From positions 1 through 33,698 of the IMG/VR virus record IMGVR_UViG_3300049491_000822: a stretch of 33,698 bases of DNA; one strand, written 5' to 3'. Made by a program: the position numbers and the translations under genes. This stretch comes from a virus. Within the stretch, counting starts at the first letter, position 1; the number at the start of each line of letters is the position of its first letter. Positions 331 through 29,504 of the stretch are shown piece by piece. Below the pieces are notes generated by a model. The model saw only the letters and a program-made list of their open reading frames with translations, did no database searches and was not told where the DNA came from.

Positions 331-2711
331 TGGCTGCGCGGACCGGGCAGAACCGACGGATGAAGTCGCCCCCCGCCGGGAAGACGACCGTTGCGGCGTC
401 GCGGAAGCGGCGCCCGGAACCGGTGGCACCCAGCTCGGGGAGCCCGCGCGCCACCGAAGTGTTCAGGCTGCTGGATGGCGCCTTGTATGCAGCGCCGTGG
501 CTGATCGGGTGGCTCGTCATCCCCGCGCTCGCGCTGACCGTGCGGCGGTTCCTCGGCGGTTCCCCGTGGGGTCGCGCCGGGACCACTGCCGTCCTCGTCG
601 CGGGTGCCGCGCTGATCCTCCCCGCCGTCTGGGATGAGGGGCGGGCCCGCCTGAACCGGTGGGAGCCGCTGCGGGTGCAGGTGTCAGCCGGATGGCTGGT
701 GGTGTGCCTGGTCGTCACCTTGTGGATGCCGGACCCGTCTGTGCTCGGCCTGCCACCGGCGCCGTGGTGCGCGCTGGTCCTGCTCGTCGGTGGCCTGCTC
801 GCACTGTGGTGGACGCTCGCCGCGCTCCCCGCGGTCCGGGGCAGGGGGGAGGACCAGCACGGGGCGGACACGTTCGGCGACGCCATCGGCGTCGGCCGGG
901 TCGAGGTTTCCGACGTGTCGGACGACGGGGTCCGGCGGGTCATCCGGGGCCGTCTGACGTCGGCGACGCGTCCGGCGTTGCAGGCCGCCCGCGGGTTGGT
1001 CGCGGTCCGGGCGGGCGCCCCGGAGACCGGTGTCGTGGTGACCGCGGACCCCGAGCATCTGGATGACGCGTCCCGTTTCCGCATGACGATCACCCGGAGC
1101 GACGTGTTGCGCACCCTGGGGGGGTGGCCTGGCCCGTCGCATCCCGGGGAGTCGATCACTTTGCCGCTGCACACGGGGCTCCGCGAGGACGGCACCGTCG
1201 TCACGTCGCGGCGGACCAACAACAACCGCCTGGTCGGTGGGGTGACGGGCGCGGGGAAGACGGAGGGCATGCTGACGGAGCTGGCCGACGCGATCACCCG
1301 CAGGGACGCATTCTTCCTGTGGGGGGACCCGATCAAGGCAGAACAGGCGCTCCCCGACATTGCGCCCGCCCTGTGGCTGGTCGCGACCACGGAAATGGAG
1401 ATCGCCCGCCTGTTGAAAGCGGTCCTGGCGGTGGTGTCGTACCGCGCGGGGATCGTGAAAGGCCGGTCATTCAGGCCGACCATCGCCGTGCCTTTCCTCG
1501 ATTTGACGATCGATGAGGCCGCGGGAATGGACGCCCTCGGGGAGGATCTCCGGCAGGTCGTGTCCACGGTCCGGTCCATCGGCGGCAGGGTGACCCTCGG
1601 CCTGCAGCGCCCGGCAGGTGACCTGCTGGACACCACGACCCGTTCGCAGTTCACCGACCGTGTCGCATTCGCCGTGACCCGGGTCGAGGACACCGACATG
1701 GTGTTGTCGGATCAGACGATCGAGGCGGGTGCCCGCCCGGAGACGTGGGGGGGGTCTCTGGAGGAGGGCGACCCGCGGCGGAAGGTCGGCTACCACTATC
1801 GGGAGTCGGGGCCGGCGGACCGGCATGCGATGCCGGCGCGGACGTGGCTGATTGATCCGGCCCGCCTGCGGGCGCATGTCGCGGAATGGGCGCCCCGCCT
1901 TGCGCAGCCGGATGAGGGGACGGCGCGCCTGTTGGCGGCGGCGGAGTTGACGTCGGGTGCGTCGTGGGCACTGGCGCACGGGTGGGCGAGGACGGCGGCG
2001 GGTGCGTGGATATCGCCGGATGTGGAAGGCGAGACGGCGGGCACCGCGGAGACGGCGGGGCTCGTCCCGATGTGGGGGACCGCCGAGACGAGGGACGGGA
2101 CGGGAGACGAGGTGACCGATTCGCTGTCCGGGGACGACCCGGACCTGACCGAGGAGGAGCGGGTGATGATCCGACGGGACGACGAGACGGCGCGGGCCGA
2201 GGCAGAGGAGTTGGTCGAGCGGGCCCTTGCGCAGGATGAGGCAGACGACGCGGCGGAGGGGGACGACGGTCCGGTGCCCCCGGCGACGGAGTTGGAGCCG
2301 GGCGAGGAGTGGGTGCTCGGTGCGCCGGACGACGGGACGGAGCGCCTGTCGTACGAGCAGCGGATCGGTGCGATCGCGGATGTCCTCGATCAGCTGCTCG
2401 GCGAGGGCGGGACGGGAGTCGTGAGCACGCGGGCGCTGATCACCCGGTTGGTGGATGTGCCGGGGTGGTCGACCGCGGACCGGCCCGCCACCTATCGGGT
2501 GTTGGAGCTGCTCAGCGATGCCGGGTACGTGCGGCATCTGGAGCGGGGCCGGTGGCAGGTCGACGGCCCCGCTCCGGGGTGGCTGCGTGAGCACGTGGCA
2601 AGCGTGGTCGTGGAGATGCAGACCCAGGAGGACGCCGAGGACGTCGCCGAATGGTCCGGGGACTCCGACGCGAATACGGACGGTGACGGGGGGGTGCCCG
2701 CGGGTGGGTAG
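330..2711 (+). CDS. FtsK/SpoIIIE (TraB-like) membrane-anchored DNA translocase
   Basis: This is a 793-residue ATPase that should pump double-stranded DNA across a septum or between mycelial cells. Residues 52-75, 86-101, 119-135 and 145-165 form four hydrophobic segments near the N terminus. The motor follows: Walker A GVTGAGKT at about 304-311, Walker B FLDLTIDEAA at about 389-398, and the RSIGGRVTLGLQRP segment at about 416-428, typical of FtsK-family motors. An acidic linker (about 590-660) leads to a C-terminal winged-helix-like domain at about 690-750, the position of the sequence-reading gamma or TraB DNA-binding domain. The start was set at ATG 330, overlapping the upstream stop; a TTG at 327 is also in frame. 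The spacer just downstream carries phased repeats that could be its recognition sites. FtsK-like genes also occur in phages, so conjugative use is inferred. Confidence 0.88.
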   Translation: MAARTGQNRRMKSPPAGKTTVAASRKRRPEPVAPSSGSPRATEVFRLLDGALYAAPWLIGWLVIPALALTVRRFLGGSPWGRAGTTAVLVAGAALILPAVWDEGRARLNRWEPLRVQVSAGWLVVCLVVTLWMPDPSVLGLPPAPWCALVLLVGGLLALWWTLAALPAVRGRGEDQHGADTFGDAIGVGRVEVSDVSDDGVRRVIRGRLTSATRPALQAARGLVAVRAGAPETGVVVTADPEHLDDASRFRMTITRSDVLRTLGGWPGPSHPGESITLPLHTGLREDGTVVTSRRTNNNRLVGGVTGAGKTEGMLTELADAITRRDAFFLWGDPIKAEQALPDIAPALWLVATTEMEIARLLKAVLAVVSYRAGIVKGRSFRPTIAVPFLDLTIDEAAGMDALGEDLRQVVSTVRSIGGRVTLGLQRPAGDLLDTTTRSQFTDRVAFAVTRVEDTDMVLSDQTIEAGARPETWGGSLEEGDPRRKVGYHYRESGPADRHAMPARTWLIDPARLRAHVAEWAPRLAQPDEGTARLLAAAELTSGASWALAHGWARTAAGAWISPDVEGETAGTAETAGLVPMWGTAETRDGTGDEVTDSLSGDDPDLTEEERVMIRRDDETARAEAEELVERALAQDEADDAAEGDDGPVPPATELEPGEEWVLGAPDDGTERLSYEQRIGAIADVLDQLLGEGGTGVVSTRALITRLVDVPGWSTADRPATYRVLELLSDAGYVRHLERGRWQVDGPAPGWLREHVASVVVEMQTQEDAEDVAEWSGDSDANTDGDGGVPAGG

Positions 2712-2894
2712 CGGACAAGTGGTTGACGTGCCCGCGTGGCGGGATCTTCTACGTGACCTGCGAGGACGTGTCTCGGGGGGGGTCGTGGACAAGCGTGGAC
2801 AAGTTGCCCGGGATCACCCCCTTGATCATGATTCATCCCATGAATGGACAATCCGATGATCCGGCGTGGACAAGCGTGGACAACGGCGGACAAG
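2711..2894 (+). repeat. Seven GGACAA units including phased 10-bp CGTGGACAAG tandem repeats
   Basis: GGACAA occurs at 2713, 2787, 2797, 2846, 2868, 2878 and 2888, all on the plus strand. Two exact tandem CGTGGACAAG units lie at 2784-2803. Three tandem units (CGTGGACAAG, CGTGGACAAC, GGCGGACAAG) lie at 2865-2894. The 10-bp period puts copies on the same face of the helix, as expected for cooperative protein binding. The spacer also holds an ATTCAT-CCC-ATGAAT inverted repeat (2831-2845), a GATCA/TGATC pair (2812-2827) and a small CCCGC-GTG-GCGGG hairpin (2731-2743). Possible roles are translocase recognition (clt/TRS-like), an operator for the downstream operon, or replication/partition iterons. 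Confidence 0.85.
2731..2743 (+). terminator. Small hairpin downstream of the translocase gene, possible weak terminator
   Basis: CCCGC-GTG-GCGGG lies 20 bp after the translocase stop and is followed by ATCTTCT. The stem is only 5 bp and the U-tract is poor, so at best it would be a weak terminator. Confidence 0.25.
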
Positions 2895-2913
2895 TAACGG
2901 AGAGTGAACACTG

Positions 2914-3279
2914 ATGGCTACTGCAACGAAAGCGCGCACCACACAGGCACCCACCCAACGCGCGCACCCCGCGACCCGCGGCGACTGGAAAACCGCCACC
3001 GACGTCATCGCCTGGGCGCAGGCCTGCGCCAGGGACAGCGGCCGCGGTGCCGCAGCCACCGACGAGGCCGCCGTGAAGCTGTACTTCGAGATCAAGAAGT
3101 CCTCGAAGGTCCCCGCCGGGCTCAACAAGCTGACCGTCGCGATCGCCGCCCGCCGAGAGCTACGCCGCTGCGCCCGCCACCTCGAGGCGGCGGAGAAGTC
3201 GTACCGCCGGATCGAGGGGATCATGCGCGCCCAGAGCGGCACCGCCCGCGCGAAGGCCGGACTGGACATGACGAAATGA
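2914..3279 (+). CDS. Unknown 121-aa basic helical protein
   Basis: I do not recognise this protein. It has a disordered Thr/Ala-rich N terminus (about 1-22), then a largely helical, Arg/Lys-rich body with one long heptad-like stretch (about 75-110, RRELRRCARHLEAAEKSYRRIEGIMRAQ). There is no signal peptide or membrane segment. The ATG at 2914 is preceded by GGAGAG (2899-2904) at normal spacing, so the start is well supported. It is the first gene after the repeat-bearing spacer, so its promoter probably lies inside that spacer and may be controlled through the GGACAA repeats. Its charge and position suggest a small nucleic-acid-associated or transfer-accessory protein, but this is only a guess. 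Confidence 0.75.
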   Translation: MATATKARTTQAPTQRAHPATRGDWKTATDVIAWAQACARDSGRGAAATDEAAVKLYFEIKKSSKVPAGLNKLTVAIAARRELRRCARHLEAAEKSYRRIEGIMRAQSGTARAKAGLDMTK

Positions 3280-3299
3280 CGGGGCCGCGGGTTACCGTA

Positions 3300-3318
3300 G
3301 AGGCCAGGAGGTGGCCTC
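3300..3318 (+). promoter_or_regulatory. Hairpin presenting the Shine-Dalgarno in its loop
   Basis: GAGGCC (3300-3305) and GGCCTC (3313-3318) form a perfect 6-bp stem. The 7-nt loop is AGGAGGT, a consensus Shine-Dalgarno, and the stem ends at the base before ATG 3319. This could act as a translational switch or as a binding site for an RNA-binding regulator. The pairing is read directly; the regulatory role is inferred. Confidence 0.6.
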
Positions 3319-3630
3319 ATGGACGCGACGACGAAACGGGCCCGCCGGCTCGCCGCACACACGAAGTTGGCGACGGATCGTCCCCTGTGGGAGTTGTGGG
3401 GCCGTCCCCTCGTCGTCCCGGTCGTCTTGGCGGTCGTGGTGGGTGGCGCATTCTGGGGGGTGTGGCTGCTCGTCTCGGCGTCGGCGGGTCGTCTCGGGTC
3501 GGTCGTCTCCGACGTCGGGTCGGCTCTGGGTGGGGTCACAGTCCCGGGACGGTGGCTGCTGGTCGCGTTCGGCGTCGTCCTCATCGTGTGGGGGGTCCGC
3601 CGATGGTTGGATCCCGGGCCGCGGCGGTAG
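3319..3630 (+). CDS. Small two-TM membrane protein
   Basis: This 103-residue protein has a basic N terminus (about 1-27), a strongly hydrophobic segment at about 31-54 (VVPVVLAVVVGGAFWGVWLL), a short polar loop, and a second membrane segment at about 77-94 (WLLVAFGVVLIVWGV). It ends in a basic tail. The ATG at 3319 follows AGGAGG in the hairpin loop described separately. Its last 28 bp overlap the next gene in another frame, so the two are probably co-translated. Small polytopic proteins of this kind often accompany TraB in AICEs (Spd, spread proteins), but I see no diagnostic motif, so its function is unassigned. Confidence 0.75.
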   Translation: MDATTKRARRLAAHTKLATDRPLWELWGRPLVVPVVLAVVVGGAFWGVWLLVSASAGRLGSVVSDVGSALGGVTVPGRWLLVAFGVVLIVWGVRRWLDPGPRR

Positions 3631-4259
3631 CGGCCGTCCTCGCGGTCGTCTCGCTGACGTTCGCGGCCACTCCCGCGCAGGCCGCGGACACGACGACCGG
3701 TAAGGCCCTGCTCGGGAAACTGACGGTCAAGGCGGAGTCCCACAACTCGACGTACGACCGGGCGAAGTTCCCCCACTGGATCGACGCCGACTCCGACGGG
3801 TGTGACACCCGCTCCGAAGTCCTCACCGCCGAATCCAGCAAGCCCGTCACCTATGGCAGCGGCTGCACCGTGAAGACCGGCCGGTGGGTGTCCTGGTACG
3901 ACGAGGAGACCTGGACCCGGGCATCGGACGTCGACATCGATCACGTCGTGGCCCTGGCGGAGGCGTGGGGTTCCGGGGCGTGGGCCTGGTCGACCGGGCA
4001 TCGGCGACGGTTCGCGAACGACCTCGACCACCCCTGGACGCTGGACGCCATCACCGACAACGTCAACCAGTCCAAGTCCGACCGGGACCCCGCCGACTGG
4101 CTGCCCGACAATCACCGCTGCAAGTACGCCCGCCATTGGGTGACCATCAAGTACCGGTGGGGTCTCAAAGTGAACACGGCGGAGAAGGCGGCGCTGTCGG
4201 GGATCCTCACCGGCGACTGCGGGAAACTCCCCCTCAAGGTCCCGGGGAAGGCATCATGA
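3603..4259 (+). CDS. Secreted DUF1524 (GmrSD C-terminal-type) HNH nuclease
   Basis: This is a 218-residue predicted extracellular DNase. ATG 3603 was chosen because it gives a clean Sec signal peptide: basic start, hydrophobic core 6-22, likely cleavage after TPAQA at 27. The mature part holds the HNH-type core of the DUF1524 family: DIDHVVALAEAW with D113-H114, then AITDNVNQSKSDRDPADWLP (N153, N155, K158, D160), the usual HNH asparagine and metal-site region. Cysteines at 67 and 88 may form a disulfide. Homologues are widespread as secreted nucleases in actinobacteria. It overlaps the upstream gene by 28 bp and the next start by ATGA. Possible roles are cell-wall-zone DNA clearance, competition with other elements, or nutrient DNase activity. 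The family call is firm; the role here is open. Confidence 0.9.
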   Translation: MVGSRAAAVAAVLAVVSLTFAATPAQAADTTTGKALLGKLTVKAESHNSTYDRAKFPHWIDADSDGCDTRSEVLTAESSKPVTYGSGCTVKTGRWVSWYDEETWTRASDVDIDHVVALAEAWGSGAWAWSTGHRRRFANDLDHPWTLDAITDNVNQSKSDRDPADWLPDNHRCKYARHWVTIKYRWGLKVNTAEKAALSGILTGDCGKLPLKVPGKAS

Positions 4260-4480
4260 ACGGCCGACACGCGATCCGAGACATCTGGCGCGGATTCTGG
4301 GCCGGTATCAGATATCTGACGTCTTGGAAGTACGTTCAGAACGTCGCAATAGTTGTGTCCGGACTTCTGATAGCCGACGTGTTCCTCAAAGATGAATACG
4401 ATCGGGCTCTCGTGGTCATGATGGGCCTCTTGATCGGCAACGTGGCGATCCTGATGATCCGATACGTGAGCGACTCATGA
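4256..4480 (+). CDS. Small two-TM protein with lower GC content
   Basis: The ATG at 4256 overlaps the nuclease stop as ATGA and gives 74 residues. An amphipathic, Trp/Arg-rich N terminus (about 1-26) is followed by membrane segments at about 28-44 (NVAIVVSGLLIADVFL) and about 51-69 (ALVVMMGLLIGNVAILMI). Base composition drops visibly in 4310-4480, to roughly 50-55% GC in some lines, against about 70% around it. That suggests a recent or separate acquisition. Its tight coupling to the secreted nuclease would allow a role in export, anchoring or immunity for that nuclease, but no sequence motif supports a specific choice. Confidence 0.75.
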   Translation: MNGRHAIRDIWRGFWAGIRYLTSWKYVQNVAIVVSGLLIADVFLKDEYDRALVVMMGLLIGNVAILMIRYVSDS

Positions 4481-5082
4481 ACGGCCAGCCCGCCGCGGCC
4501 ACTCACACCCTGCCGGCACGGTTCGCCCATCTCCGCCGCGACCGGCGTGGGCTACCCGTCCCGTACATCAACCGGTGGGGCATCGAAGAAGACGCCACCC
4601 GCCTCTCGATTCGACGTGACCCGTGGGTCGGGGAACCCGGCATCTACATGGACGACGAAGGGCAAGACGTCCCGGACTTCACCCGCCAGAACATGGGTCG
4701 GCAACGGGAATGCATGGCCCGCGGCCTATGCCAGGTGTGCGGGAGACCGGTGCCGTGGTCTCGGCGGGTCCTGGTCATATCGGACATGTCGATGTCGTAT
4801 GTGACCGTCGACGGCATCCCGGGGCCGGTGCCGGTGGTGACGGAGCCGTGGTTGGACGACGAGTGCGCGGACTTCGCGGTGTCGCGGTGCCCGGCGTTGA
4901 TCCGTCGTCGTCGAGACGAGAACCTGCACACGGTGCGGGTGACGTCGCCGCGGGACGTGGAACTGGTCGTGTCCCGGGGGTGGGTGGACGGCCCGCTGGA
5001 GGTGGAGACGCGGCGGGTGATGCCCGCGATGTGGGTGAAGCTCCTGCTCGTCGGCGATCAACGCGCCAGGCGCTGGGCATGA
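4477..5082 (+). CDS. Four-cysteine, probably zinc-binding protein of actinophage/AICE type
   Basis: This 201-residue cytoplasmic protein starts at ATG 4477, overlapping the previous stop. The layout resembles a protein family common in actinobacterial phages and integrative elements: an opening ARFAHLRRDRRGLPVPY, a CQVCGRPVPW knuckle (C85, C88), then DDECADFAVSRCPAL (C130, C138) near the middle. The four cysteines could bind one zinc. The family has no established function that I know of. Its presence links this plus-strand block to phage-like elements as well as AICEs. Family resemblance is from memory of the motif pattern. Confidence 0.8.
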   Translation: MNGQPAAATHTLPARFAHLRRDRRGLPVPYINRWGIEEDATRLSIRRDPWVGEPGIYMDDEGQDVPDFTRQNMGRQRECMARGLCQVCGRPVPWSRRVLVISDMSMSYVTVDGIPGPVPVVTEPWLDDECADFAVSRCPALIRRRRDENLHTVRVTSPRDVELVVSRGWVDGPLEVETRRVMPAMWVKLLLVGDQRARRWA

Positions 5083-5618
5083 ACGGGCCCACCCACTACC
5101 TGATGGGCGTCTACGCCGGAGCCGGGACCGGCGTCGCCGCCAGCTGGCCGCTGTGGCAGACCGCCACCGCCGCCGTCATCGCCACCAGCGTGGCGCACGG
5201 CCCCACCTCCCCCGACGGGGACCAGACGTGGCTGTCCTGGACGGGCCGGCACCGCGGCGTCACCCACTGGTGGGGGTGGGCCCTCCTGTTGGCCGCCGCA
5301 GGGCAAGGGTTGGGCCCGCCTGGGTGGCCACTGGTCGCGCTCGCCGCCGGTGTCGCGTCCCACCTCGTCGGGGACGCCCTGTACGGGTCACCCGGCGTCC
5401 CCCTGCTCCCGTGCAAGCCGTGGGGTTTCGTCGGACTCCGGTGGCGGGTAGCGGGCCGTGTTCGAGGCCCGCAGCCGCCGCTCAGCCGGATCCCGGTCGT
5501 CCGGCAGGTGCAACGCTGGCGGCGGCAGGTCGGGCACTCCGAGCTGGCCGTGCGGTGGCTACTCAGGTGGGGCCTCATTCCCCTCGCGGCGGCCGTGGTG
5601 TGGCAGGCGGCAGCATGA
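5079..5618 (+). CDS. YdjM-like membrane-bound metal-dependent hydrolase
   Basis: This 179-residue integral membrane protein resembles the YdjM/DUF457 family. Potential metal ligands are H6 in NGPTHYLMG, H58 and H63 in the HRGVTH signature, and H95/D99 in SHLVGDAL. Hydrophobic segments lie at about 9-40, 64-76, 82-98 and 158-176. These positions match the family pattern of an HR.xTHS-like motif followed by H..GD. ATG 5079 overlaps the upstream stop by ATGA. In Enterobacteria YdjM is LexA-regulated, and related proteins are often carried by actinobacterial mobile elements, where the substrate is unknown. The protein ends in a basic loop and a final TM helix. Confidence 0.85.
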   Translation: MNGPTHYLMGVYAGAGTGVAASWPLWQTATAAVIATSVAHGPTSPDGDQTWLSWTGRHRGVTHWWGWALLLAAAGQGLGPPGWPLVALAAGVASHLVGDALYGSPGVPLLPCKPWGFVGLRWRVAGRVRGPQPPLSRIPVVRQVQRWRRQVGHSELAVRWLLRWGLIPLAAAVVWQAAA

Positions 5619-15273: not shown

Positions 15274-18200
15274 CTACACCGCCAGGGCGAGGTTGTGGAC
15301 GGCGATCGCGTCGCGCTTCCGCTTGTCGATCTGTCGGGCCAGCTCGGCCGGGTCGTAGCCGACGTTCCCGTTGATGACCACCTGCGACCCTCCACCCACC
15401 TGGTCGGCCCCCGGCGCTGCGAAGTCGACGCCGCGGGGGCGAGGCAGGCGGACCATCCCGGCGATCGCGGCGTCCAGGTTGCGCTGCTCGGCGCTCACCC
15501 CGTCGATGACGCCGCGGGGAATCCAGCGGCCCACCTCGTCGGCGGCCAACTTCGACGGCGAGCCGATCTTGAGCGCCTTCCGCAATTCGGCGATCAGCTG
15601 GCGGGCCACCCGCTTCGCGGCCTTCGCGAGCACGGAGGCCTGTGACTCGAAGCCCTTCACGAGGCCGCGCGCCGTGTCCACGCCGCCCTGATACAGCGCG
15701 CTGGCGCCGAGCCGGCCGACGCTGCCGGCGGCTTTCGCGAGCTGTCCGGCGAGGTCGTTGACGGTGCGGATCGCACCCTTCCCGCCGGTCAGGAGGGACT
15801 GTGCGGTCGCCGACCCGGCATCCACCCCGGCTTCGATGATCTGTTGGAGGCTCTGCTTGTTGAGGCCCGCCGCGCGCAGTGCTTTCAGCTGGGCGGCGAA
15901 TGCTCGGGTGTTCTTCACCTGGGCGCGGAGCCGGTTCGCGATCGTCGCGGCGTCCGCGTCGGTCTGGCCGGTGATGTTCCCGGCGGAGAGGATCCCGGAG
16001 GCCACCGACTTCGCGAAGTCGTCACGAAGTTTCACCGCGGCTTCCAGCTTGTCGCGGGCCGCCTTCAACTTCTCGGCGAGCGCGGCGCGCTGAGCGGCGA
16101 GACCTTTCAAGGCTGCCACTTCATTGCGGGCGGCTTTCGCGATGGGGCGGGACACGTTGGAAGCGATCCGCTCGGCGGCGGCTTTCACCTGGGCGACACT
16201 GCCGAGCAGACCGTCACGGAGACCGTCGCCGACCCAACGACCGAATCTCGCCATCAACTTCGACGGGGACCCGATCTGCAACAGCTTCTGGATCGGGCCG
16301 GGAATGTTGTTCGCCAAGGCTTTCGCGGCGGCGACCACGCGCCCGGCGGAGCTCTTGATGCCGTTGACGAATCCGTCGACCACGGACCGACCGGCGGCCA
16401 ACAGGAGATTCTTCAAGCCGGACAACGCGGACTTGATCTTCCCGGGGATCGCCTTCACGGCGTTCAGGACGGCGGACGCACCCTTAACGACGATGTTCTT
16501 GATCGCCGTCCAGGCGGCCGAGATGATCGACTTGACGCCGTTCCACGCCGCGGACGACGCCGACCGGATCCCCCCGCCGAGCGTCGTAAACAGGGCACGG
16601 ATGATCCGGAATCCGAGACGGAGGATCTTGAGAATCCCGACGTTCAGGAAAACCTGAATGATCCCCTTGATTGCCGTCCAGGCGCCGGAGACGATCTGCT
16701 TTGCACCCTTCCACAGTCGCGACCAGTCCCCGGAGAACAGTCCGGCGAACACGTTCAAGATCCCGGCGATGATGACGAGGGCGCCCTTGATGACATTCAC
16801 GGCGCCCTTGAGCGCCCCGACGACGGCGCCACCGATGAACTTCACGATGAAATTCGCGACCGGGGTGATGGCGGGCAGGAAAGCCGCGAACGCGGGCGCC
16901 ACCTGCGTGGAGATGATCGTGCCGATCTGCGACAGGGCCGGACCGATCACGGAAAGGATCTGCCGCCCGAGCTCCTTCAACGTCGGCAGCACCGCTGCGA
17001 CGAAATTTGATATCGCGGGAGCGACGATCGCGAACGCCGTCTGAATGGACCCGGCGAAACTCGACAGCCCCGCCGTCACCCCCGAGAAGGCGTCGCCGAG
17101 GCCACTCTTGCCGGTGAACAGGTCGGTGATGGCCTGTGCGAACGGCCGGACCGCCGTCAATGCGGTCGTGATCGCCCTACCGATCGCACCGAACACCACC
17201 GATGCCGCCGGAGCGATGTCGTTGAGGAAGGTGAACAGGCTCTTGAGGACGTTGAACAGGCCCGACGTGAACGCAATCACCGTCTTCACACTGTTACTGA
17301 TCGTCTTCGTCAGATCACCGGACTTCGTGCCCTCCTTCACCCACGCGGCGAAACGGGTCGCGGCATTCCCGAGCGACGTCGTCAGAATCGTCAGGCCCGG
17401 CAATGCCGCATTCGTTAGACCGAGAAGGCCCTTCACGAACGGCACCAGCGCGTTACCGAGCGGGGTGAGTGCCGTCTTCAACCCCGCAAACAGGTCGCGG
17501 ACCAGCTTCAGCCCGGCGGAGGATGATGCGAACTTGAGAAGCCCCTTCAACACGTCATTGACCAGCGACCCGATGCCCGTCAACCCCGTCTTGAGGACGG
17601 GAACCAGTTTCGTCGCCAACTCCGACGCGAGCGGACGGATACCGGCCGTGACCACCTTCGTGATCGGGGCCTGCAATTTCTTCACCGAATCCGTGAAAGG
17701 ATCGAAAGCCTTCTTCAGGCCCTTTGCGGAGATCGCGATCACACCGACCGCGGCGCCCACCCCGAACAACAACGGCAGCATCGTCACCGCGGACGCCAGC
17801 ATCGCCGCCAACCCCCCGGCGGCCAACAGGATCGGCGGACCCCACGTGATCAGCTTCGCGCCGACGTTCGCCACCGATACCGACAGCTGCCCGGAGATCG
17901 TCGTCAACGCCGACCCGGCATCAGTGGCCCGCTTCAACCCGCCCGCTGCGAGCGCGGACGCGACACCGATCTTCGAGACGTCCACGTCGACTTCGATCGT
18001 CGGGTGCGCGGCCTTCGCCAACGCCTCGATCTCGGCGACCTGGGCGAGCACCTGCTGACGGAACGCCGTCGCGTTCTCCACCCCTACCGGCACGCCGATG
18101 GACAGCGCCGCCTCCAGGCCCGCGACCTGCCGGGTCAGGTCCTGGCGGAGCTTCTCGCCGTCCGCGGTGACCGGGATGTCAACTTCGACCTGCCGGGCCA

Positions 18201-18468
18201 ACTTCCGGACATCCGAACGGATCCGGCGCGCGAAGTCGTCGGCGTCCGGCGCCACCGGCAACGTGACCGGCGCCTGCCGCTCCGTCTGCCGGCGCACCCG
18301 CTCCACGTCACCGGCGATGCCATCGACGTTGAGCACCGTCGGGATCTCAACCCGGAGCGTCCGCTCCACCCGCTGCAGATACCGCAACAGGCTCCGACCG
18401 AATGCGCTGGTGTCCGGCAACACCCGGACCGAGGCCCGCCCCGCCTCCACCCCCCCGGGACCGGCCAC
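15274..18468 (-). CDS. Tape measure protein (1064 aa)
   Basis: This is the longest gene of the tail region. Its length sets tail length; by the usual 1.5 angstrom per residue rule, about 1060 residues would give a tail of roughly 150-160 nm. It is mainly helical, with an Arg/Val-rich N-terminal third, hydrophobic segments around 190-245 (GPPILLAAGGLAAMLASAVTML...) and long Ala/Lys-rich helices. The C-terminal GSPSKL motif is present twice (LLQIGSPSKLMARFGRWVGDGL and ALKIGSPSKLAADEVGRWI), as in many actinophage tape measures. I see no lysozyme or peptidase domain. Start GTG 18468 has a strong AGGAGGTG Shine-Dalgarno. It follows the frameshifted chaperone pair directly. Confidence 0.95.
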   Translation of the reverse strand: MAGPGGVEAGRASVRVLPDTSAFGRSLLRYLQRVERTLRVEIPTVLNVDGIAGDVERVRRQTERQAPVTLPVAPDADDFARRIRSDVRKLARQVEVDIPVTADGEKLRQDLTRQVAGLEAALSIGVPVGVENATAFRQQVLAQVAEIEALAKAAHPTIEVDVDVSKIGVASALAAGGLKRATDAGSALTTISGQLSVSVANVGAKLITWGPPILLAAGGLAAMLASAVTMLPLLFGVGAAVGVIAISAKGLKKAFDPFTDSVKKLQAPITKVVTAGIRPLASELATKLVPVLKTGLTGIGSLVNDVLKGLLKFASSSAGLKLVRDLFAGLKTALTPLGNALVPFVKGLLGLTNAALPGLTILTTSLGNAATRFAAWVKEGTKSGDLTKTISNSVKTVIAFTSGLFNVLKSLFTFLNDIAPAASVVFGAIGRAITTALTAVRPFAQAITDLFTGKSGLGDAFSGVTAGLSSFAGSIQTAFAIVAPAISNFVAAVLPTLKELGRQILSVIGPALSQIGTIISTQVAPAFAAFLPAITPVANFIVKFIGGAVVGALKGAVNVIKGALVIIAGILNVFAGLFSGDWSRLWKGAKQIVSGAWTAIKGIIQVFLNVGILKILRLGFRIIRALFTTLGGGIRSASSAAWNGVKSIISAAWTAIKNIVVKGASAVLNAVKAIPGKIKSALSGLKNLLLAAGRSVVDGFVNGIKSSAGRVVAAAKALANNIPGPIQKLLQIGSPSKLMARFGRWVGDGLRDGLLGSVAQVKAAAERIASNVSRPIAKAARNEVAALKGLAAQRAALAEKLKAARDKLEAAVKLRDDFAKSVASGILSAGNITGQTDADAATIANRLRAQVKNTRAFAAQLKALRAAGLNKQSLQQIIEAGVDAGSATAQSLLTGGKGAIRTVNDLAGQLAKAAGSVGRLGASALYQGGVDTARGLVKGFESQASVLAKAAKRVARQLIAELRKALKIGSPSKLAADEVGRWIPRGVIDGVSAEQRNLDAAIAGMVRLPRPRGVDFAAPGADQVGGGSQVVINGNVGYDPAELARQIDKRKRDAIAVHNLALAV

Positions 18469-21626: not shown

Positions 21627-21962
21627 CTACTGGTCGACCTGGACGCCCGCGGCGCGCAGCAAATCGAACACGTCGGAACGGCTCGCGCCATCCGGCACCT
21701 CCACCCCGACGGAGACGGCGTACGCCGCCCACGCCTCGGTCGACGATCCGGGCCCGGAGGTCGGCGGCGCCACCGACGGCTCCGGCGAACCGCCCGGCTC
21801 ACCCTCGCCGTCCGGCTCCGGATCGGGCACGCCGTCCCGGACGCCGTCCACCCACGCGTGCTCACCGATCTGCACGGCGACCTCCGGCGGCACCGGGACG
21901 TCCGGGTAGGCCGGCCCGTACCAGACGCCGTCGATGGCCACATTCCCGGCCAACGGCGGCAT
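21627..21962 (-). CDS. Head-connector-region protein with C-terminal Rho-N/HeH-like motif
   Basis: ATG 21962 overlaps the capsid-gene stop and gives 111 residues. The N-terminal part (NVAIDGVWYGPAYPDVPVPPEVAVQIG) forms short strands as in actinophage proteins next to the major capsid gene. A Pro/Gly/Ser-rich linker (about 47-72) leads to AWAAYAVSVGVEVPDGASRSDVFDLLRAAGV, similar to small HeH/LEM or Rho-N-type helical modules found at this position. Function is probably structural; the exact role is unassigned. Confidence 0.65.
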   Translation of the reverse strand: MPPLAGNVAIDGVWYGPAYPDVPVPPEVAVQIGEHAWVDGVRDGVPDPEPDGEGEPGGSPEPSVAPPTSGPGSSTEAWAAYAVSVGVEVPDGASRSDVFDLLRAAGVQVDQ

Positions 21963-22999
21963 CAGGAGACCGTCGCAACCATGAGCGCCTTCGGGTTGGA
22001 CAGCACCGGCAGCGCGGTGGCGTCCGCGAAGCAGTCCTCCCGGTACGGCGGGGACACGTTCTTGTCGATCACCCCGACAATGCCGGGGGCCTCCGCGAAC
22101 GTCAGCTGCCCGGCGTTCGCCAGCTCCAACCCCGTCGCCGACAGACCCCACGCGGTGTACCCGAGTTCGATGCCCGCCGGAGGAACGAAGATCACCTTGT
22201 TGACGGGCAGGATCGACGTGGACGTGCCATCCACATCGACTTGCGAGTCATAAGTGTTGATCAGGCCGGGCAGCCGCATCCGGCGCAGCAGCCCCGACAG
22301 CTGGTCGAAGTCCACCTGGCTCGGGACCGCCCCGTTGGCGCCGAACAGCGCGCGGATCCCCGCGTTCTGCGCCATCAGCCACACGACGTCCTCGGAGCAC
22401 CAGAACCCGCCCGGCGCGTACCCGTTCAGGGCCCGGTAGTAGTTCGTCCAGGTCCGCAGGTTGCCCAGCACGTCCGCCGTGGCGATCGTCGACCACAGGG
22501 TGCCGGCGGTCACCAGGTTGCCGCCCGGCACCCCGAAGTCAGCCTGCAACTGGTTCTCACCGGTGCGCGTCAGATCGACGATGCCGTCGGTGAGCATGTC
22601 GCCGCGGGCCAGCTCCACGCGGGCCTGGATGGACCGCACGTTCACCTCGGTGTCGTCATACATGGCCGCCTCGATGGCCGGGGTGGAACCGCCCGCGTTG
22701 CGGGCCCGCTCCAGCTGGAGGCGTTCCAGCTCACCGCGGCCCAGGACCTGGGAGACCGGCGGGAGGCTGACCCGACGGGTCACCATGCCGTCCCGCTTGC
22801 CGCGCTGCGGCGGCGCGTCGAAGCTGCGGTACTTCGCGATCCGGGTGGTGACGGTGACCTCGTCGACCCCGACCGTCAGGTCCTGCACGGTCCGGTCGGG
22901 GAGGATCTGGTTCAGCACGAAATCCTGCCGGACGGGGACCTGACGCGCGAACGCGGTCAGAGCGGCCGGGGGGACGATGGAATCCCACACAATGGGCAT
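21962..22999 (-). CDS. Major capsid protein, E-type
   Basis: This 345-residue protein resembles the lambda-gpE-type family used by many actinophages. It opens PIVWDSIVPPAALTAFARQVPVRQDFVLNQILPD and has the conserved EVTVTTRIAKYRSFDAPPQRGKRDGMVTRRVSLPPVSQVLGRGELERLQLERARN stretch. The ending LSNPKALMVATVS is usual. It forms the HK97-fold shell. It is preceded by scaffold and decoration genes, as in lambda. ATG 22999 has GGAGAAACC upstream. Confidence 0.92.
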   Translation of the reverse strand: MPIVWDSIVPPAALTAFARQVPVRQDFVLNQILPDRTVQDLTVGVDEVTVTTRIAKYRSFDAPPQRGKRDGMVTRRVSLPPVSQVLGRGELERLQLERARNAGGSTPAIEAAMYDDTEVNVRSIQARVELARGDMLTDGIVDLTRTGENQLQADFGVPGGNLVTAGTLWSTIATADVLGNLRTWTNYYRALNGYAPGGFWCSEDVVWLMAQNAGIRALFGANGAVPSQVDFDQLSGLLRRMRLPGLINTYDSQVDVDGTSTSILPVNKVIFVPPAGIELGYTAWGLSATGLELANAGQLTFAEAPGIVGVIDKNVSPPYREDCFADATALPVLSNPKALMVATVS

Positions 23000-24354: not shown

Positions 24355-25341
24355 TCAGGCGGACGCGAGACGCCCACGCATCCGCTCGGCCAGCTCCCGC
24401 TGGAAGGCGAGCGGCCCGGCGACCTGGTCGCCCGCGGCGGCCCGGGCCTCCAGCTCGACGATGGTGCGCTCCGCCGAGCTGAGGACCGACGGCGCATCTA
24501 CGTCGATGTCAGCGGCCGAAACAACCCGCCGAGCCGCCCCCCGGGGACCCGTCGGGTCCTGGCCGGCCGGATTCAACACCGGCCCCAGCTCGCCGTGCTC
24601 CGTCAACTGGTAGCGGGTCCGTTTCAACGCGGCGGCGGCCGTGGCCCCGGCGTCGACATACAACCGCCGCAGGTCCTCCCGGTTCAATGACCGTCCCGGG
24701 TCGCGGCCACCGGCGAGCACCGGAGCGACGACACATTTGCATCGGTCATGAATGGGCATCAGATGTTCGGCGCGGTAGATCCGGTCCGACGCGACGATGC
24801 ACAGCCCGCAGGTGCCGCCCTCGGACAGCTCCGGCCGGATGATGCGCCGGAAACCGACCACCTCATCGATGGGCGCCAACGTCTGCCGGGCGCCCTCACG
24901 CATCCCGATGGTCAGGTCCGTCTCGGCGACCAGCAGGGCCCGCCGCTCGGCGCGCTCGGCGGCCTCCAGGTCCTCCAGCCCCTGCAGGCGCAGCCGCCGA
25001 TAATCCTTCACCGGGCGTTCCGCGACCGCCTGCGGGTCGGTGCCGCGCGGGGCGTCCACGAGCCGGACCGGCACGAGCGGCGCCGAGACGTCGAACACGG
25101 CGAGGCTGCGGCGCAGCTGCGCGGCGACGAGGTTCGCCTCCCGCTGCTGCCCGGCAGCCACCGCCCGGGCCACCGCAGCCGTGTAGCCGGCCACCTGCTC
25201 GTCGTCGTACCGGTTGAGCAGGGCCGCCCAGAGGCGACGGATCTCGGCGAGCACCGCGGCCCGGATCGTCGTGCGTGCCCGGGCGTGCGCGTCGATGAGC
25301 AGGCCGACCCGGCGGGTCCGCTCCGTGGCCGACAGGGCCAT
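24355..25341 (-). CDS. MuF-like minor head protein (328 aa)
   Basis: A long helical N-terminal part (about 1-155) leads to the signature block GFRRIIRPELSEGGTCGLCIVASDRIYRAEHLMPIHDRCKC. This has a CxxC knuckle (C178, C181) and a His/Cys cluster (H193, H198, C201, C203), as in the actinophage MuF/VG15 family. It is bound near the portal and is thought to be injected or to help head completion. ATG 25341 overlaps the portal stop. The remaining C-terminal about 100 residues are helical and Arg/Ala-rich. Confidence 0.85.
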   Translation of the reverse strand: MALSATERTRRVGLLIDAHARARTTIRAAVLAEIRRLWAALLNRYDDEQVAGYTAAVARAVAAGQQREANLVAAQLRRSLAVFDVSAPLVPVRLVDAPRGTDPQAVAERPVKDYRRLRLQGLEDLEAAERAERRALLVAETDLTIGMREGARQTLAPIDEVVGFRRIIRPELSEGGTCGLCIVASDRIYRAEHLMPIHDRCKCVVAPVLAGGRDPGRSLNREDLRRLYVDAGATAAAALKRTRYQLTEHGELGPVLNPAGQDPTGPRGAARRVVSAADIDVDAPSVLSSAERTIVELEARAAAGDQVAGPLAFQRELAERMRGRLASA

Positions 25342-26795
25342 CAGGCGGCCGGCTGGTCCGGGACGGCCTGCGCCGGCTGCGCGGCAGGCTGGACAGCGAC
25401 CGACGCAGCAGCAGCGGGCTGCGGGGCGTTGAACAGCAGATCATCGGCGCGCTGCGCCTCGATCCGGGCGATGTCGTCCGGGGACAGCTGCAACACGTGC
25501 TGCGCGACCGCCGCCCACGGCATCCCTGACGCCTTTGCCTTCACCGCGGCATCGAAGCGTTCCGCGAGCGTGGAGCGCTCGGCGGACTGCCAGATCGTCA
25601 CGATCTCCGAAGGCTCCGCCCGGGGCGCGTCACCCTGGAACCGAAACGCGAGCGCCACCAGGCGGGCCAGACCCCGGCCGCCGCGCCGTCGCCGGTCCTC
25701 CACCTTCGTGGTCGCCGACTCCCGTTGCAGGCTCGCACCCTCCGCCGAGCCCTGCACGGCGTCCGGGGTCAGCCAGTGCAGCGGCGTCCGGGTCGCGGCG
25801 GCCAACGCTTTCACGTCATCCAGGACGGCCATCCGCAGCGGTCCCAGATCGATGGGCTGCGACTCCCAGAAATCCGTCTCTGACCCGACCTTCCAGAGCG
25901 CACCCGGGTCGTCGGTGAACATGTTCGTGTAGTCGATCCTGTTGCCGTCCTCGTCCTCATCAGGGAGGCCCTTCACGGCACGCTGCCGGTGCGCCTGATG
26001 TTTCCCGATGACGAGGCGGTCGAAGATGCCTTCGTTGATCCGGTCCAGGACCGCGAGATGCCCCTCGAACTCTCCGATGCCCCGCCGGTTCGAGACCCGC
26101 ACCACGGGCACGACGTCCTCGAAACCGGTCGGCAGGACACCGGACATCTCCGGATCCCAGTCCATGCCGGACGGATTCGAGGACGCATTCTTCCGGCGCG
26201 TCACCCAAATCTGGCCCGGCAGGTAGACGTAGATGAACTCCTCACCCGTCCACTCATCGCGCCGCACCTTCAACGCCGCCCGCGCCAGGCCCGTCACCGG
26301 GTCATCGGCGGTGATGACGTCCAGCGGGGACTCCGCGGTGATAGTCGACACGCCGTCGCCCGCCGGGGGGGCGGTGATGCCGTACCCGTCGCCGAGGCCC
26401 ACCTGATGGCCGAACAGGTCGGCGCACACCAGGTCCAGATCGTTGGCCCGGAAGATCCGGGCCGCCTCCGCGTCGCCCGTGAAATCAGAATCGACGGCGG
26501 TGCGGAAACCGAGCGGCACCATCCGCTCCACCACCGAATCCACCACGACCTCGGCGTAATTCATCCGCGCCTTACGCAAGAACTCTTTCATCTGGTCCGA
26601 CCAGCCGAACGCCGCCGACGAGATCGGCGGGTCCCCTCGCAGGTGCGCCGCCAACAAGGTCAACGGGGGCCGAACCGGCCGCGAATCCATCGCCGTCGCC
26701 GACCAGCCGACACCGGCGACTCGCGCCCGCCGCGCCGTGTCCAGCTTGTGCATCCACCACCCGGGGGAGCCCGGCGTTTCAACGTCGATCGGCAC
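25341..26795 (-). CDS. Portal protein (SPP1 gp6-like), 484 aa
   Basis: This protein has the portal layout: an N-terminal helical region (FLRKARMNYAEVVVDSVVERMVPLGFR), a beta-rich wing (EEFIYVYLPGQIWVTRRKN, VVPVVRVSNRRGIGEFEGHLAVLDRINEGIFDRLV), then long helices. A Pro/Ala/Gln-rich tail closes it (about 450-484). It forms the dodecameric ring at the packaging vertex, next to the MuF-like protein. GTG 26795 has GGAGG upstream. Unusually, it is separated from the terminase by four other virion genes. Confidence 0.9.
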   Translation of the reverse strand: MPIDVETPGSPGWWMHKLDTARRARVAGVGWSATAMDSRPVRPPLTLLAAHLRGDPPISSAAFGWSDQMKEFLRKARMNYAEVVVDSVVERMVPLGFRTAVDSDFTGDAEAARIFRANDLDLVCADLFGHQVGLGDGYGITAPPAGDGVSTITAESPLDVITADDPVTGLARAALKVRRDEWTGEEFIYVYLPGQIWVTRRKNASSNPSGMDWDPEMSGVLPTGFEDVVPVVRVSNRRGIGEFEGHLAVLDRINEGIFDRLVIGKHQAHRQRAVKGLPDEDEDGNRIDYTNMFTDDPGALWKVGSETDFWESQPIDLGPLRMAVLDDVKALAAATRTPLHWLTPDAVQGSAEGASLQRESATTKVEDRRRRGGRGLARLVALAFRFQGDAPRAEPSEIVTIWQSAERSTLAERFDAAVKAKASGMPWAAVAQHVLQLSPDDIARIEAQRADDLLFNAPQPAAAASVAVQPAAQPAQAVPDQPAA

Positions 26796-26813: not shown

Positions 26814-29504
26814 TCAGAACGGTATGCCGACGAGGCCGGACGGTGGACGCGGAGTGCCGATCAACCCGGCAGCCGAACGCGGCGTGCCGACCAGCCGCGG
26901 GAACACGTGCGGCGTGCCGATCTTCGGCGGGAACATCGGCCCCATGACTTCGAGGTCGGCCACCGCGAACACGACGACACCGCCACCGGCGACGACGAAC
27001 CGGACCGCAACCAGCCCGCCGACAGCCCCGACAGCCACCGGCGCCGAGCCGGCCAGCCCCCGACTCCCACCGAGCACCCCCGTCGCGCCCGCAGCGACCG
27101 GCGCGGACGCGAGAACACCTCGCGCGACGACCAGCGCGGCGCCGGCACCCGAAGTGGCCGAGGCGGACCCGGTGAGATCTTTCGCCGCACCCAACGTCGC
27201 GGCGGCCCCCGCGGCGGCCGGCGCCACCCCGACGACCGGCCGGGCGAGCCCGGCCGTGCCGCTACCCGCCGCCGAGGCGGTACCGGACCCGGCGACCGGC
27301 CGGGCGGCGACCAATGCACCCGAGGCGGAAGCAGAGATGGCGCCGACACCGGCGAGTGCCCGTTGACCCTGAATCGACAGGTCGCCCGTGGCGCCGCTGG
27401 TCGCCGCGCCGGAACCGGCGACCGGCCGAGCAACCCCGACAGCACCAGACCCGCCCGCTGAGGCCGACCCGGACCCGACCAGTGGCCGGGACGCCTCCGT
27501 CGCGCCGGTCCCGCCGGCCGCCGCCGGTCCAGTACCCGCGAACACCTTGGCAGCGACGGCCGCGCCGGATGCTCCCGCGGCGACCGCAGCAGACCCCGAA
27601 AAAACCCGTGCAGCAGCGACATCACCGGCGCCACCCCCGGCGACGGGAGCGACAGCGGTCAGCGGGCGGGCCGACTCCAACACTCCGCCGGCCGAGACGG
27701 CTACCGGGCCGACAGCACCCAACGGGCGAGCCAGCGAAGCGGACCCGCCGCTGCTGCCGGACGACGCGGCCGACCCGTCCAGGGCGACCAGATCCCCCGC
27801 CGTGGCGGGACCAATCTGGAAAGCGGTGTCCGTAATGCCCAGGCTGTCGCCGTATCGGGCGCCCATCGACGCCGCGAACGTACAACCCCACCAGAACTCG
27901 ACAGCCGAAACCGACGACTGAGCACCGACCAGATGCACCGTCGGAGTCGTCGACTCCCCCACATACAGATACACATCGGTCGCACCGGCATTGTAAGTAA
28001 CTTCAATGCGATAAGCAGTCCCGACCGCTATAGCACCGGAACCCGACTGATCCAACACGGAACCCGCATTATTGACGAGTTGCAGGACACCGGCGAACGT
28101 CACATCCAGCATCCACTGAACGGCGGACCCCGTCCACGCCAACGCCATCCGATATCCGCCGCCGAGAGAATCGACGGAATGATACCAGCGCCACGCGGCT
28201 TGCGAAACCGCAGAATGCGACCACACAATGTACGACGTGTCCGAGGCCGGCCATTTGACCTGCGGCGACCGAGCCCCGGACGCATCGACCGTCGGCGCGG
28301 TCCCCTGCACCGACGTCGGCGCCGGAATGTCGCCCGACCCTGTCGACCCGATTGTGAACGTCCCCGGAGACAGACCGTTGCCGGTCCACCGGACCAGAGT
28401 CGTGGCCAGCACCCCAGAAGCACCGGACGAAACCTGCCCGGCCGCTGCCGCCGTCCGGGAAACCTCAGTCGCACCGACGGCACCCGCTGCCACCGGCGCC
28501 GCACCGACGAAATCGACCACCCGTGCGAGCGGGCCGCCCGACGCGCTACCCGACGCCGCCGCCGAAGCGGCCACGGGCCGGGCGACTCCCACCGTCGCCA
28601 CGCCAGAAGCGCTGACCGGACCGAAACCCGCCGCCGAACGCTCCACCGCGGCGACGGCGGTCGCAGACGCGGCGATGACACCAGGAGCGGCGAGCGGACG
28701 ATCGCGAGCCACCGCGCCGGACGCCGACGCCGACGCCGACGCTGACGCCGCCAGGTCCCTGGCAATGCCAGCGCCGGACAGGCCGAAAATCTCGACAGCG
28801 ACAGCGGTCGGCTTCTGCCCCGCGGCCGTCAACTCACCGGTCGTCTTGGAACCGGCCGCACCGACATTCGGCCAATAGGCGGAGAAGACAGCCCAGTCGA
28901 ACGTGCCCGGATTCGACGAAGTGCCGAGCAGCTCATACCCGTTCTGCCGGGTCGGAGTTATCCCGTTGATCGTCTTCCAGGTGAGACCGGCGATCGGGAC
29001 CGCGTTCCAGTCCGCGAAGAACGCCGTGACCGCAGAATTGGCCGCAGTGGTGGTGACATTCAGGACCGGATCGGCGACCCCGGCATTGTCGACCCCGGCC
29101 GAAGCGCCGACACCGCCGCTGCCCCGCCACACCTCGACCGCGATCGCGGCCATCCGGTCGATACTGGACGTCAACGTCGACTGAACGACGAAAGTTGCAT
29201 CCGCGGACGCCACGGAAGTCCACAAGAAGACGTCACAAAGATTGGCGTCATCGGTGGTGTTCGGTTTCTGCTGCTGCGCGTACGTCAAGCCGCCGCCGGT
29301 GGGGACGCTCAACCCGGAGACGCCGTCCTCCACGGCACCGAAAACCACGAGCACGTCACCGGCCTTGACAGTCACCGGCGCCGAACACACCGTGCCGTTC
29401 GGCCGGACCACCGTCCACGGCTCCGGCCCCACGAACGCGACCAGCACCGGCGGCGCGACAGCAGCCTTCGACCCGCCCAGCGGGTACAACAGCGGAGACG
29501 TCAC
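26814..29504 (-). CDS. Large repeat-rich virion adhesin (896 aa) with LamG-like domain
   Basis: The N-terminal 240 residues form a beta-rich carbohydrate-binding-like domain (WTVVRPNGTVCSAPVTVKAGDVLVVFG and IAVEVWRGSGG). Residues 248-368 hold about six copies of an Ala/Gly/Ser/Val repeat of roughly 20 residues. Residues 369-590 form a LamG/concanavalin-like sandwich (VRWTGNGLSPGTF; SYIVWSHSAVSQAAWRWYHS; YRIEVTYNAGATDVYLYVGE). Residues 592-834 hold twelve tandem repeats starting ARP(V/L) every 20 residues (one unit is 22). The last 37 residues form four 10-residue repeats around I/V-GTP. GTG 29504 has GGGAGGG upstream. Likely a surface fibre or capsid-associated adhesin with repeats as an extended stalk. 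Function is inferred; nothing suggests an enzyme. Confidence 0.75.
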   Translation of the reverse strand: MTSPLLYPLGGSKAAVAPPVLVAFVGPEPWTVVRPNGTVCSAPVTVKAGDVLVVFGAVEDGVSGLSVPTGGGLTYAQQQKPNTTDDANLCDVFLWTSVASADATFVVQSTLTSSIDRMAAIAVEVWRGSGGVGASAGVDNAGVADPVLNVTTTAANSAVTAFFADWNAVPIAGLTWKTINGITPTRQNGYELLGTSSNPGTFDWAVFSAYWPNVGAAGSKTTGELTAAGQKPTAVAVEIFGLSGAGIARDLAASASASASASGAVARDRPLAAPGVIAASATAVAAVERSAAGFGPVSASGVATVGVARPVAASAAASGSASGGPLARVVDFVGAAPVAAGAVGATEVSRTAAAAGQVSSGASGVLATTLVRWTGNGLSPGTFTIGSTGSGDIPAPTSVQGTAPTVDASGARSPQVKWPASDTSYIVWSHSAVSQAAWRWYHSVDSLGGGYRMALAWTGSAVQWMLDVTFAGVLQLVNNAGSVLDQSGSGAIAVGTAYRIEVTYNAGATDVYLYVGESTTPTVHLVGAQSSVSAVEFWWGCTFAASMGARYGDSLGITDTAFQIGPATAGDLVALDGSAASSGSSGGSASLARPLGAVGPVAVSAGGVLESARPLTAVAPVAGGGAGDVAAARVFSGSAAVAAGASGAAVAAKVFAGTGPAAAGGTGATEASRPLVGSGSASAGGSGAVGVARPVAGSGAATSGATGDLSIQGQRALAGVGAISASASGALVAARPVAGSGTASAAGSGTAGLARPVVGVAPAAAGAAATLGAAKDLTGSASATSGAGAALVVARGVLASAPVAAGATGVLGGSRGLAGSAPVAVGAVGGLVAVRFVVAGGGVVVFAVADLEVMGPMFPPKIGTPHVFPRLVGTPRSAAGLIGTPRPPSGLVGIPF
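27005..27731 (-). repeat. Twelve-unit tandem array of 60-bp coding repeats
   Basis: Residues 592-834 of the adhesin start a new unit with an ARPx/AKxx/SRxx block at 592, 612, 632, 652, 672, 692, 714, 734, 754, 774, 794, 814, then a half unit at 834. Period is 20 residues except one 22. Consensus is approximately ARPVAGSGPAAAGASGALVA. Units differ at many positions, so the array is old rather than newly duplicated. Confidence 0.8.
28403..28763 (-). repeat. Six-unit array of about 60-bp coding repeats upstream of the LamG-like domain
   Basis: Residues 248-368 hold units starting ARDL, RDRPL, ERSA, ARPV, ARVV, SRTA with spacing near 20 residues. They share the composition and ARPV/GxxxAxASG texture of the second array but are more degenerate. 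Confidence 0.65.
28720..28749. repeat. GACGCC hexanucleotide microsatellite
   Basis: Five consecutive hexamers (GACGCC x3, GACGCT, GACGCC) occur here. On the coding (minus) strand they encode an (Ala-Ser)-type run at about residues 252-261 of the adhesin. Hexamer slippage would change repeat number without breaking frame. Confidence 0.75.

Follow-up and report, generated by a model that had tools for sequence, protein, structure and literature searches.

A gap between genes in a phage genome, directly after the gene for a TraB-like DNA translocase, holds seven direct repeats with the core GGACAA. Comparison with related loci suggests that this array is most likely a clt locus with a new recognition repeat for the translocase (probability about 0.8). 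The window, meaning the whole stretch of DNA analysed, is a 33,698-base virus record, linear and incomplete. The general anatomy of a traB gene with an array downstream is known. New here are the repeat, the divergent lineage of the translocase, and the location in a phage. The features at the left end of the window are as follows.

1–330, + strand: 3' end of the gene that precedes the translocase gene; the contig begins inside it (tblastn to a protein of locus L154)
360–2711, + strand: TraB-like FtsK/SpoIIIE-type DNA translocase, 783 aa (PHROG, plasmid TraB, and FtsK matches)
2289–2627, + strand: predicted C-terminal winged helix of the translocase (AlphaFold2 model, PDB winged-helix matches)
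2712–2913, + strand: intergenic gap between the translocase and the next gene, candidate clt (non-coding; sited as in the proven clt loci of pJV1 and pWTY27)
2711–2720, + strand: repeat 1, GCGGACAAGT
2784–2803, + strand: repeats 2 and 3, tandem CGTGGACAAG CGTGGACAAG
2843–2852, + strand: repeat 4, AATGGACAAT, the weakest copy
2865–2894, + strand: repeats 5 to 7, tandem CGTGGACAAG CGTGGACAAC GGCGGACAAG
2914–3279, + strand: 121-aa protein, the first gene past the array

A divergent translocase and the repeats that follow its gene

The translocase was found to be an FtsK/SpoIIIE-type RecA motor related to TraB. It matched phrog_24831 (E 2.6e-29) and the FtsK/SpoIIIE-like phrog_1358 (E 1e-9), as well as plasmid TraB proteins with E values down to 7e-26, and its profile A3 matched FtsK crystal chains (E 2e-14). 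The Walker A motif reads GVTGAGKT, hydrophobic stretches are visible within residues 1–155, and an alternative TTG start is possible at 327. A single-protein search recovered no close relatives from viral contigs or genome contigs, tblastn against phages gave weak motor matches only, and the best identity among everything found, including 390 class genomes, was about 33%. The translocase lineage is divergent and new here. Upstream, the C-terminal part of the product of 1–330 resembled a membrane-type protein of L154 (42% over 47 aa, E 7e-5, tblastn), the counterpart being an ORF at 51–965 just upstream of the L154 traB.

The C-terminal part of the translocase (residues 644–756) was modelled with AlphaFold2 from a 40-row alignment, at a mean pLDDT of 84. 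The order of predicted elements was helix, strand, helix, helix, and a two-strand wing (H-E-H-H-E-E), with the putative recognition helix at model residues 62–77. Winged-helix folds were the best PDB matches to the model (Z up to 9.3). No Foldseek match reached E≤0.001, generic winged helices ranking high among the matches listed, and the FtsK gamma domain was not among the listed structural matches. The model supports a predicted role of this part of the protein as a DNA-binding domain, and leaves its target sequence aside.

The array that follows is real and goes beyond chance. As the first-pass annotation had stated, seven copies of GGACAA in a single orientation lie directly after the FtsK/TraB-like gene, between 2713 and 2893 on the + strand (starts at 2713, 2787, 2797, 2846, 2868, 2878, and 2888). 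The first copy begins 2 nt past the stop codon at 2711, and 20 nt separate the last copy from the ATG at 2914. Only six further copies occur in the 33.7 kb, both strands counted. The densest 6-mer per 190 nt reached 4–5 copies in 60 dinucleotide shuffles of the contig, and 5 copies in the rest of the real contig, versus 7 for GGACAA, while 5000 local shuffles gave a mean of 0.15 copies of GGACAA and a maximum of 3. The repeat unit is approximately CGTGGACAAG, with GGACAA the core common to all seven copies; the final tandem unit reads CGGCGGACAAG instead of CGTGGACAAG. The exact double repeat was not found in other viral contigs. The earlier description of the repeats as helically phased at 10 bp held within the two tandem clusters, which contain five copies (2787/2797 and 2868/2878/2888), but not between them, as the remaining steps measure 74, 49, and 22 nt, with 81 nt between the clusters.

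The most serious rival to a clt locus is a cluster of DnaA boxes or iterons, an origin at which host DnaA or a Rep protein would start replication, because the copies read on the − strand as TTGTCCACG, one base off the actinobacterial DnaA box TTGTCCACA. Four copies agree with TTGTCCACA at 8 of 9 bases, the array stretch is AT-richer than its surroundings (GC 0.594 versus 0.702), and plasmid iterons likewise sit in gaps. The high-affinity box of Streptomyces and Mycobacterium is TTGTCCACA, and its integral part is the final hexamer, TCCACA (PMC4285127). However, none of the seven copies is an exact TTGTCCACA, and none contains TCCACA (TCCACG in four, TCCGC in two, TCCATT in one), the shared core being GGACAA. 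Arrays at the same position in relatives are not DnaA boxes, and no replication gene was seen among the scanned genes of the contig, which is cut on its left. The DnaA-box reading was downgraded on the lack of TCCACA and on the common core, and with it the earlier suggestion of replication iterons, which is unlikely. A very doubtful variant is that the recognition repeat converged on the host DnaA box, the core GTGGACAA lying within the reverse complement of TTGTCCACA, such that the translocase could additionally load at the cluster of DnaA boxes in oriC. If so, it would push chromosomal DNA, origin first, into neighbouring cells, and the phage would mobilise the host chromosome from oriC.

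Repeat arrays and winged helices among TraB-like loci

The wider occurrence of such arrays argues for the clt reading. The survey drew on viral contigs, genome contigs, plasmids, and genome sets. It yielded 130 non-redundant TraB-like genes, each of which was scored for a repeated 7-mer in the 300 nt around and after the stop codon against shuffles (p<0.01). A search of relatives, which the first-pass annotation had proposed, showed that arrays recur right after traB, with a significant array at 71 of the 130 loci. The remaining 59 were not significant at p<0.01, the most distant group being without arrays. Possession of the same type of translocase without an array, which had been named as evidence against the idea, was thus confined to a minority, although this includes the relative closest in the motor (L023, about 29%, a 97-kb virus record), where an array was absent both after the gene and across the 13.6-kb locus. 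The position of the arrays was sharply defined. At the stop codon, 36% of 300-nt windows had at least five copies, as against 0–2% over most of the gene and 1–2% from 200 nt on. The mean top 7-mer count likewise peaked at the stop, at 4.1, from about 2.2–2.4 through most of the gene, and was back to 2.4 by 300 nt.

The repeats themselves varied from clade to clade, and included CTGACACC, CCGCACA, CGGAACAG, CGTGGCACC, CGTGGCCCC, GTTGCACC, and TGTCACG. Six plasmid relatives, picked solely by their TraB match, all had a gap of 138–269 nt directly behind traB that contained short repeats, most of them facing the same way, of the type CTGACA(CC), GTGACACC, or CCGCACA(CC). Repeats of these types make up the proven clt loci of pWTY27 and pJV1. 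Copies in the other arrays were mostly spaced by 7–14 nt (235 of 371 steps), so that strict helical phasing does not hold across the family.

In these relatives, as judged from sequence comparison, the type of repeat tracks the C-terminal winged helix. Among pairs with motor similarity above 0.6, the motif cosine was 0.57 where the winged helices were alike (252 pairs) and 0.08 where they were unlike (75 pairs); over all pairs it climbed steadily from 0.07 to 0.66 with winged-helix similarity. In partial Mantel tests the winged helix given the motor had r=0.158 and the motor given the winged helix 0.115 (both p=0.002), and shared ancestry is incompletely removed, since each keeps an effect. 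The co-variation of repeat and C-terminal domain that the first-pass annotation had looked to was therefore found, but it is shown for the relatives and not for the present protein, whose best identity to any of them is only about 33%. The annotation's suggestion of a new recognition sequence, read by the winged helix of the translocase, gains strong support from these comparisons.

Among the closest parallels are the clt loci of two Streptomyces plasmids. That of pJV1 comprises nine CCGCACA[CG][CG] repeats (PMC3583192). The pJV1 sequence, read directly and taken as a positive control for a short direct-repeat array adjoining a tra gene (an arrangement also found in the contig), has nine CCGCACA copies, all forward, 5–122 nt after the traB stop, and one forward copy elsewhere in the plasmid. 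Like the contig, it has short direct repeats in one orientation in the non-coding gap that follows a tra gene whose FtsK-like product carries a C-terminal winged helix, and many of its copies lie 8–13 nt apart. It differs in repeat sequence and in being a small plasmid without virion genes, and its TraB is about 30% identical over the motor. In pWTY27, the clt spans 16 bp of traA and 159 bp beyond, and TraA protects its TGACACC repeats in footprints (PMC3583192). The likeness to the contig lies in 7-bp direct repeats at the end of, or just past, the tra gene, which in pWTY27 are protected by Tra. The differences are its four TGACACC and additional CCCGCCC repeats, its nature as a theta plasmid, and a function proven by experiment (PMC3583192).

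Some relatives also share a second element. A box, TGACCTGTAAC (≤1 mismatch), occurred within 570 nt after traB at 32 of 130 loci, versus 16 matches in the other 821,807 nt of these loci, and it sits amid repeats of differing types. Carriers include L106, L155, L158, L160, L114, L117, and L119, with the reverse complement in L029, L030, L035, L036, and L164. The box was absent from the contig, where the best match had 3 mismatches (near 2754), and the string did not occur in any relevant paper of the literature searched. In two comparisons, L155 versus L164 (89% over 145 nt) and L160 versus L030, the complete clt cassette of repeats and box was flipped relative to traB. The orientation of the cassette to the gene is not fixed, since it is inverted as a unit between related elements. 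The Streptosporangiales TraB elements L117 and L119 resemble the contig in having an array after traB, of GTCCAAACC/GTCCAGACC, with a common GTCCA/TGGAC core, but in the opposite orientation relative to traB, with other flanks, and with the TGACCTGTAAC box.

These inversions bear on the earlier proposal that the array is an operator of the operon beginning at 2914. The bound protein would then be either the 121-aa protein or the translocase, the latter in the role of autorepressor. Only about 20 nt separate the array from the ATG of the 121-aa protein, and a promoter serving this gene would have to overlap the repeats. However, inversion of a whole repeat cassette relative to traB fits a cis-acting site better, no sigma-70-like promoter was detected in 2500–3400 (a search that actinobacterial promoters may escape), and the 121-aa protein matched no Pfam or PHROG family, had no relative in viral contigs, and gave only a low-confidence, helical single-sequence model (pLDDT 58.6). 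An operator is very unlikely, because in Streptosporangiales relatives the cassette is inverted as a whole relative to traB, and the proposal was weakened accordingly.

The phage setting

Past the array, a short run of genes leads to the virion genes. A small protein with a GmrSD C-terminal (HNH-type) domain is encoded at 3603–4259, the Pfam match having been obtained on a longer ORF in the same frame (2904–4259). It is followed by a 201-aa protein (4477–5082) with 31% identity over 156 aa to a protein encoded 3 kb upstream of traB in virus record L036, and by a YdjM-like membrane protein (5079–5618, Pfam E 1.5e-9). The remainder is largely a virion module on the opposite strand, assigned by PHROG matches.

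6106–33385, − strand: siphovirus lysis, tail, head, and packaging module, including an endolysin
15274–18468, − strand: tape measure
21962–22999, − strand: capsid
24355–25341, − strand: protease
25341–26795, − strand: portal
31103–32707, − strand: terminase

An 896-aa protein within the virion gene run (26814–29504) was without a PHROG or Pfam match, and strong AT skew extends over those coordinates. The terminase was at most 52% identical to those of known phages, and no near-identical phage was found for the first 20 kb of the contig. Among the scanned genes of the contig, which is cut at position 1, no replication, integrase, or partition gene was identified.

Virion genes and a putative transfer module are present on one replicon, as in a phage-plasmid. 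The circular, 84.8-kb pCQ4 has traA, traB, five CTGACA copies in the gap, and, further along, genes for terminase, portal, and capsid, all inside some 12 kb, along with a ParB-type partition gene and an adjoining AAA ATPase. Elements of the pCQ4/pZL12 kind and the contig share the order of traB, clt-like array, and virion genes, the last beginning 3–4 kb on in pCQ4 and after a few genes in the contig. pCQ4 differs in its repeat and its small genes, and the contig is an incomplete linear piece without identified replication, integrase, or partition genes.

Pumps of the FtsK family with polar recognition sites act in segregation too, and phage-plasmids need partition, as the ParB-type gene and adjoining ATPase of pCQ4 illustrate. 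The array could then be a partition or packaging site, either centromere-like or the place where the translocase loads for segregation instead of cell-to-cell transfer. However, no ParA- or ParB-like gene was identified among the scanned genes of the incomplete contig, and the nearest characterised members with the same anatomy function in transfer, making this role very unlikely.

TraB-like genes recur in phage-like contigs, pointing to a wider group of phages that carry a conjugation-type pump. The pairing of such a gene with an array is likewise seen in other phage contigs, as well as in pCQ4. Among 15 virus records with a TraB relative, eight had a terminase of the same family as that of the contig and five had a related portal. 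A TraB-like gene and a large terminase occurred together in the records of L025, L027, L028, L031, L032, L034, L035, and L036. The phages nearest by terminase (L004–L015) gave no TraB match, in a search without a positive control and with several of them fragments, and the described plasmid-phage phiNon1 had no TraB-profile match within its first 50 kb. Actinobacterial plasmid-phages of the pZL12 kind have already been described (cited in PMC3583192 and PMC5431353). Given these elements and pCQ4, conjugative phages and phage-plasmids are already a known kind.

Proposed mechanism and significance

If the array is a clt locus, its repeats (approximately CGTGGACAAG, core GGACAA) would be recognised by the C-terminal winged helix of the translocase, and several translocase subunits would gather there. 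A hexameric motor may then load on the array DNA and drive the element, as a double-stranded circle, into an adjacent cell or compartment of the hypha, as in the conjugation of Streptomyces plasmids. We infer the binding, the loading of the hexamer, and the transfer.

A new recognition sequence would thereby be added to TraB-type conjugation, in the genome of an actinobacterial phage. With both a repeat and a pump in a phage genome, the element may spread as virions and also by direct pumping of DNA between actinobacterial cells. Moreover, about 100 pairs of translocase and repeat, in which the repeat follows the winged helix, make the recognition rule open to direct testing.
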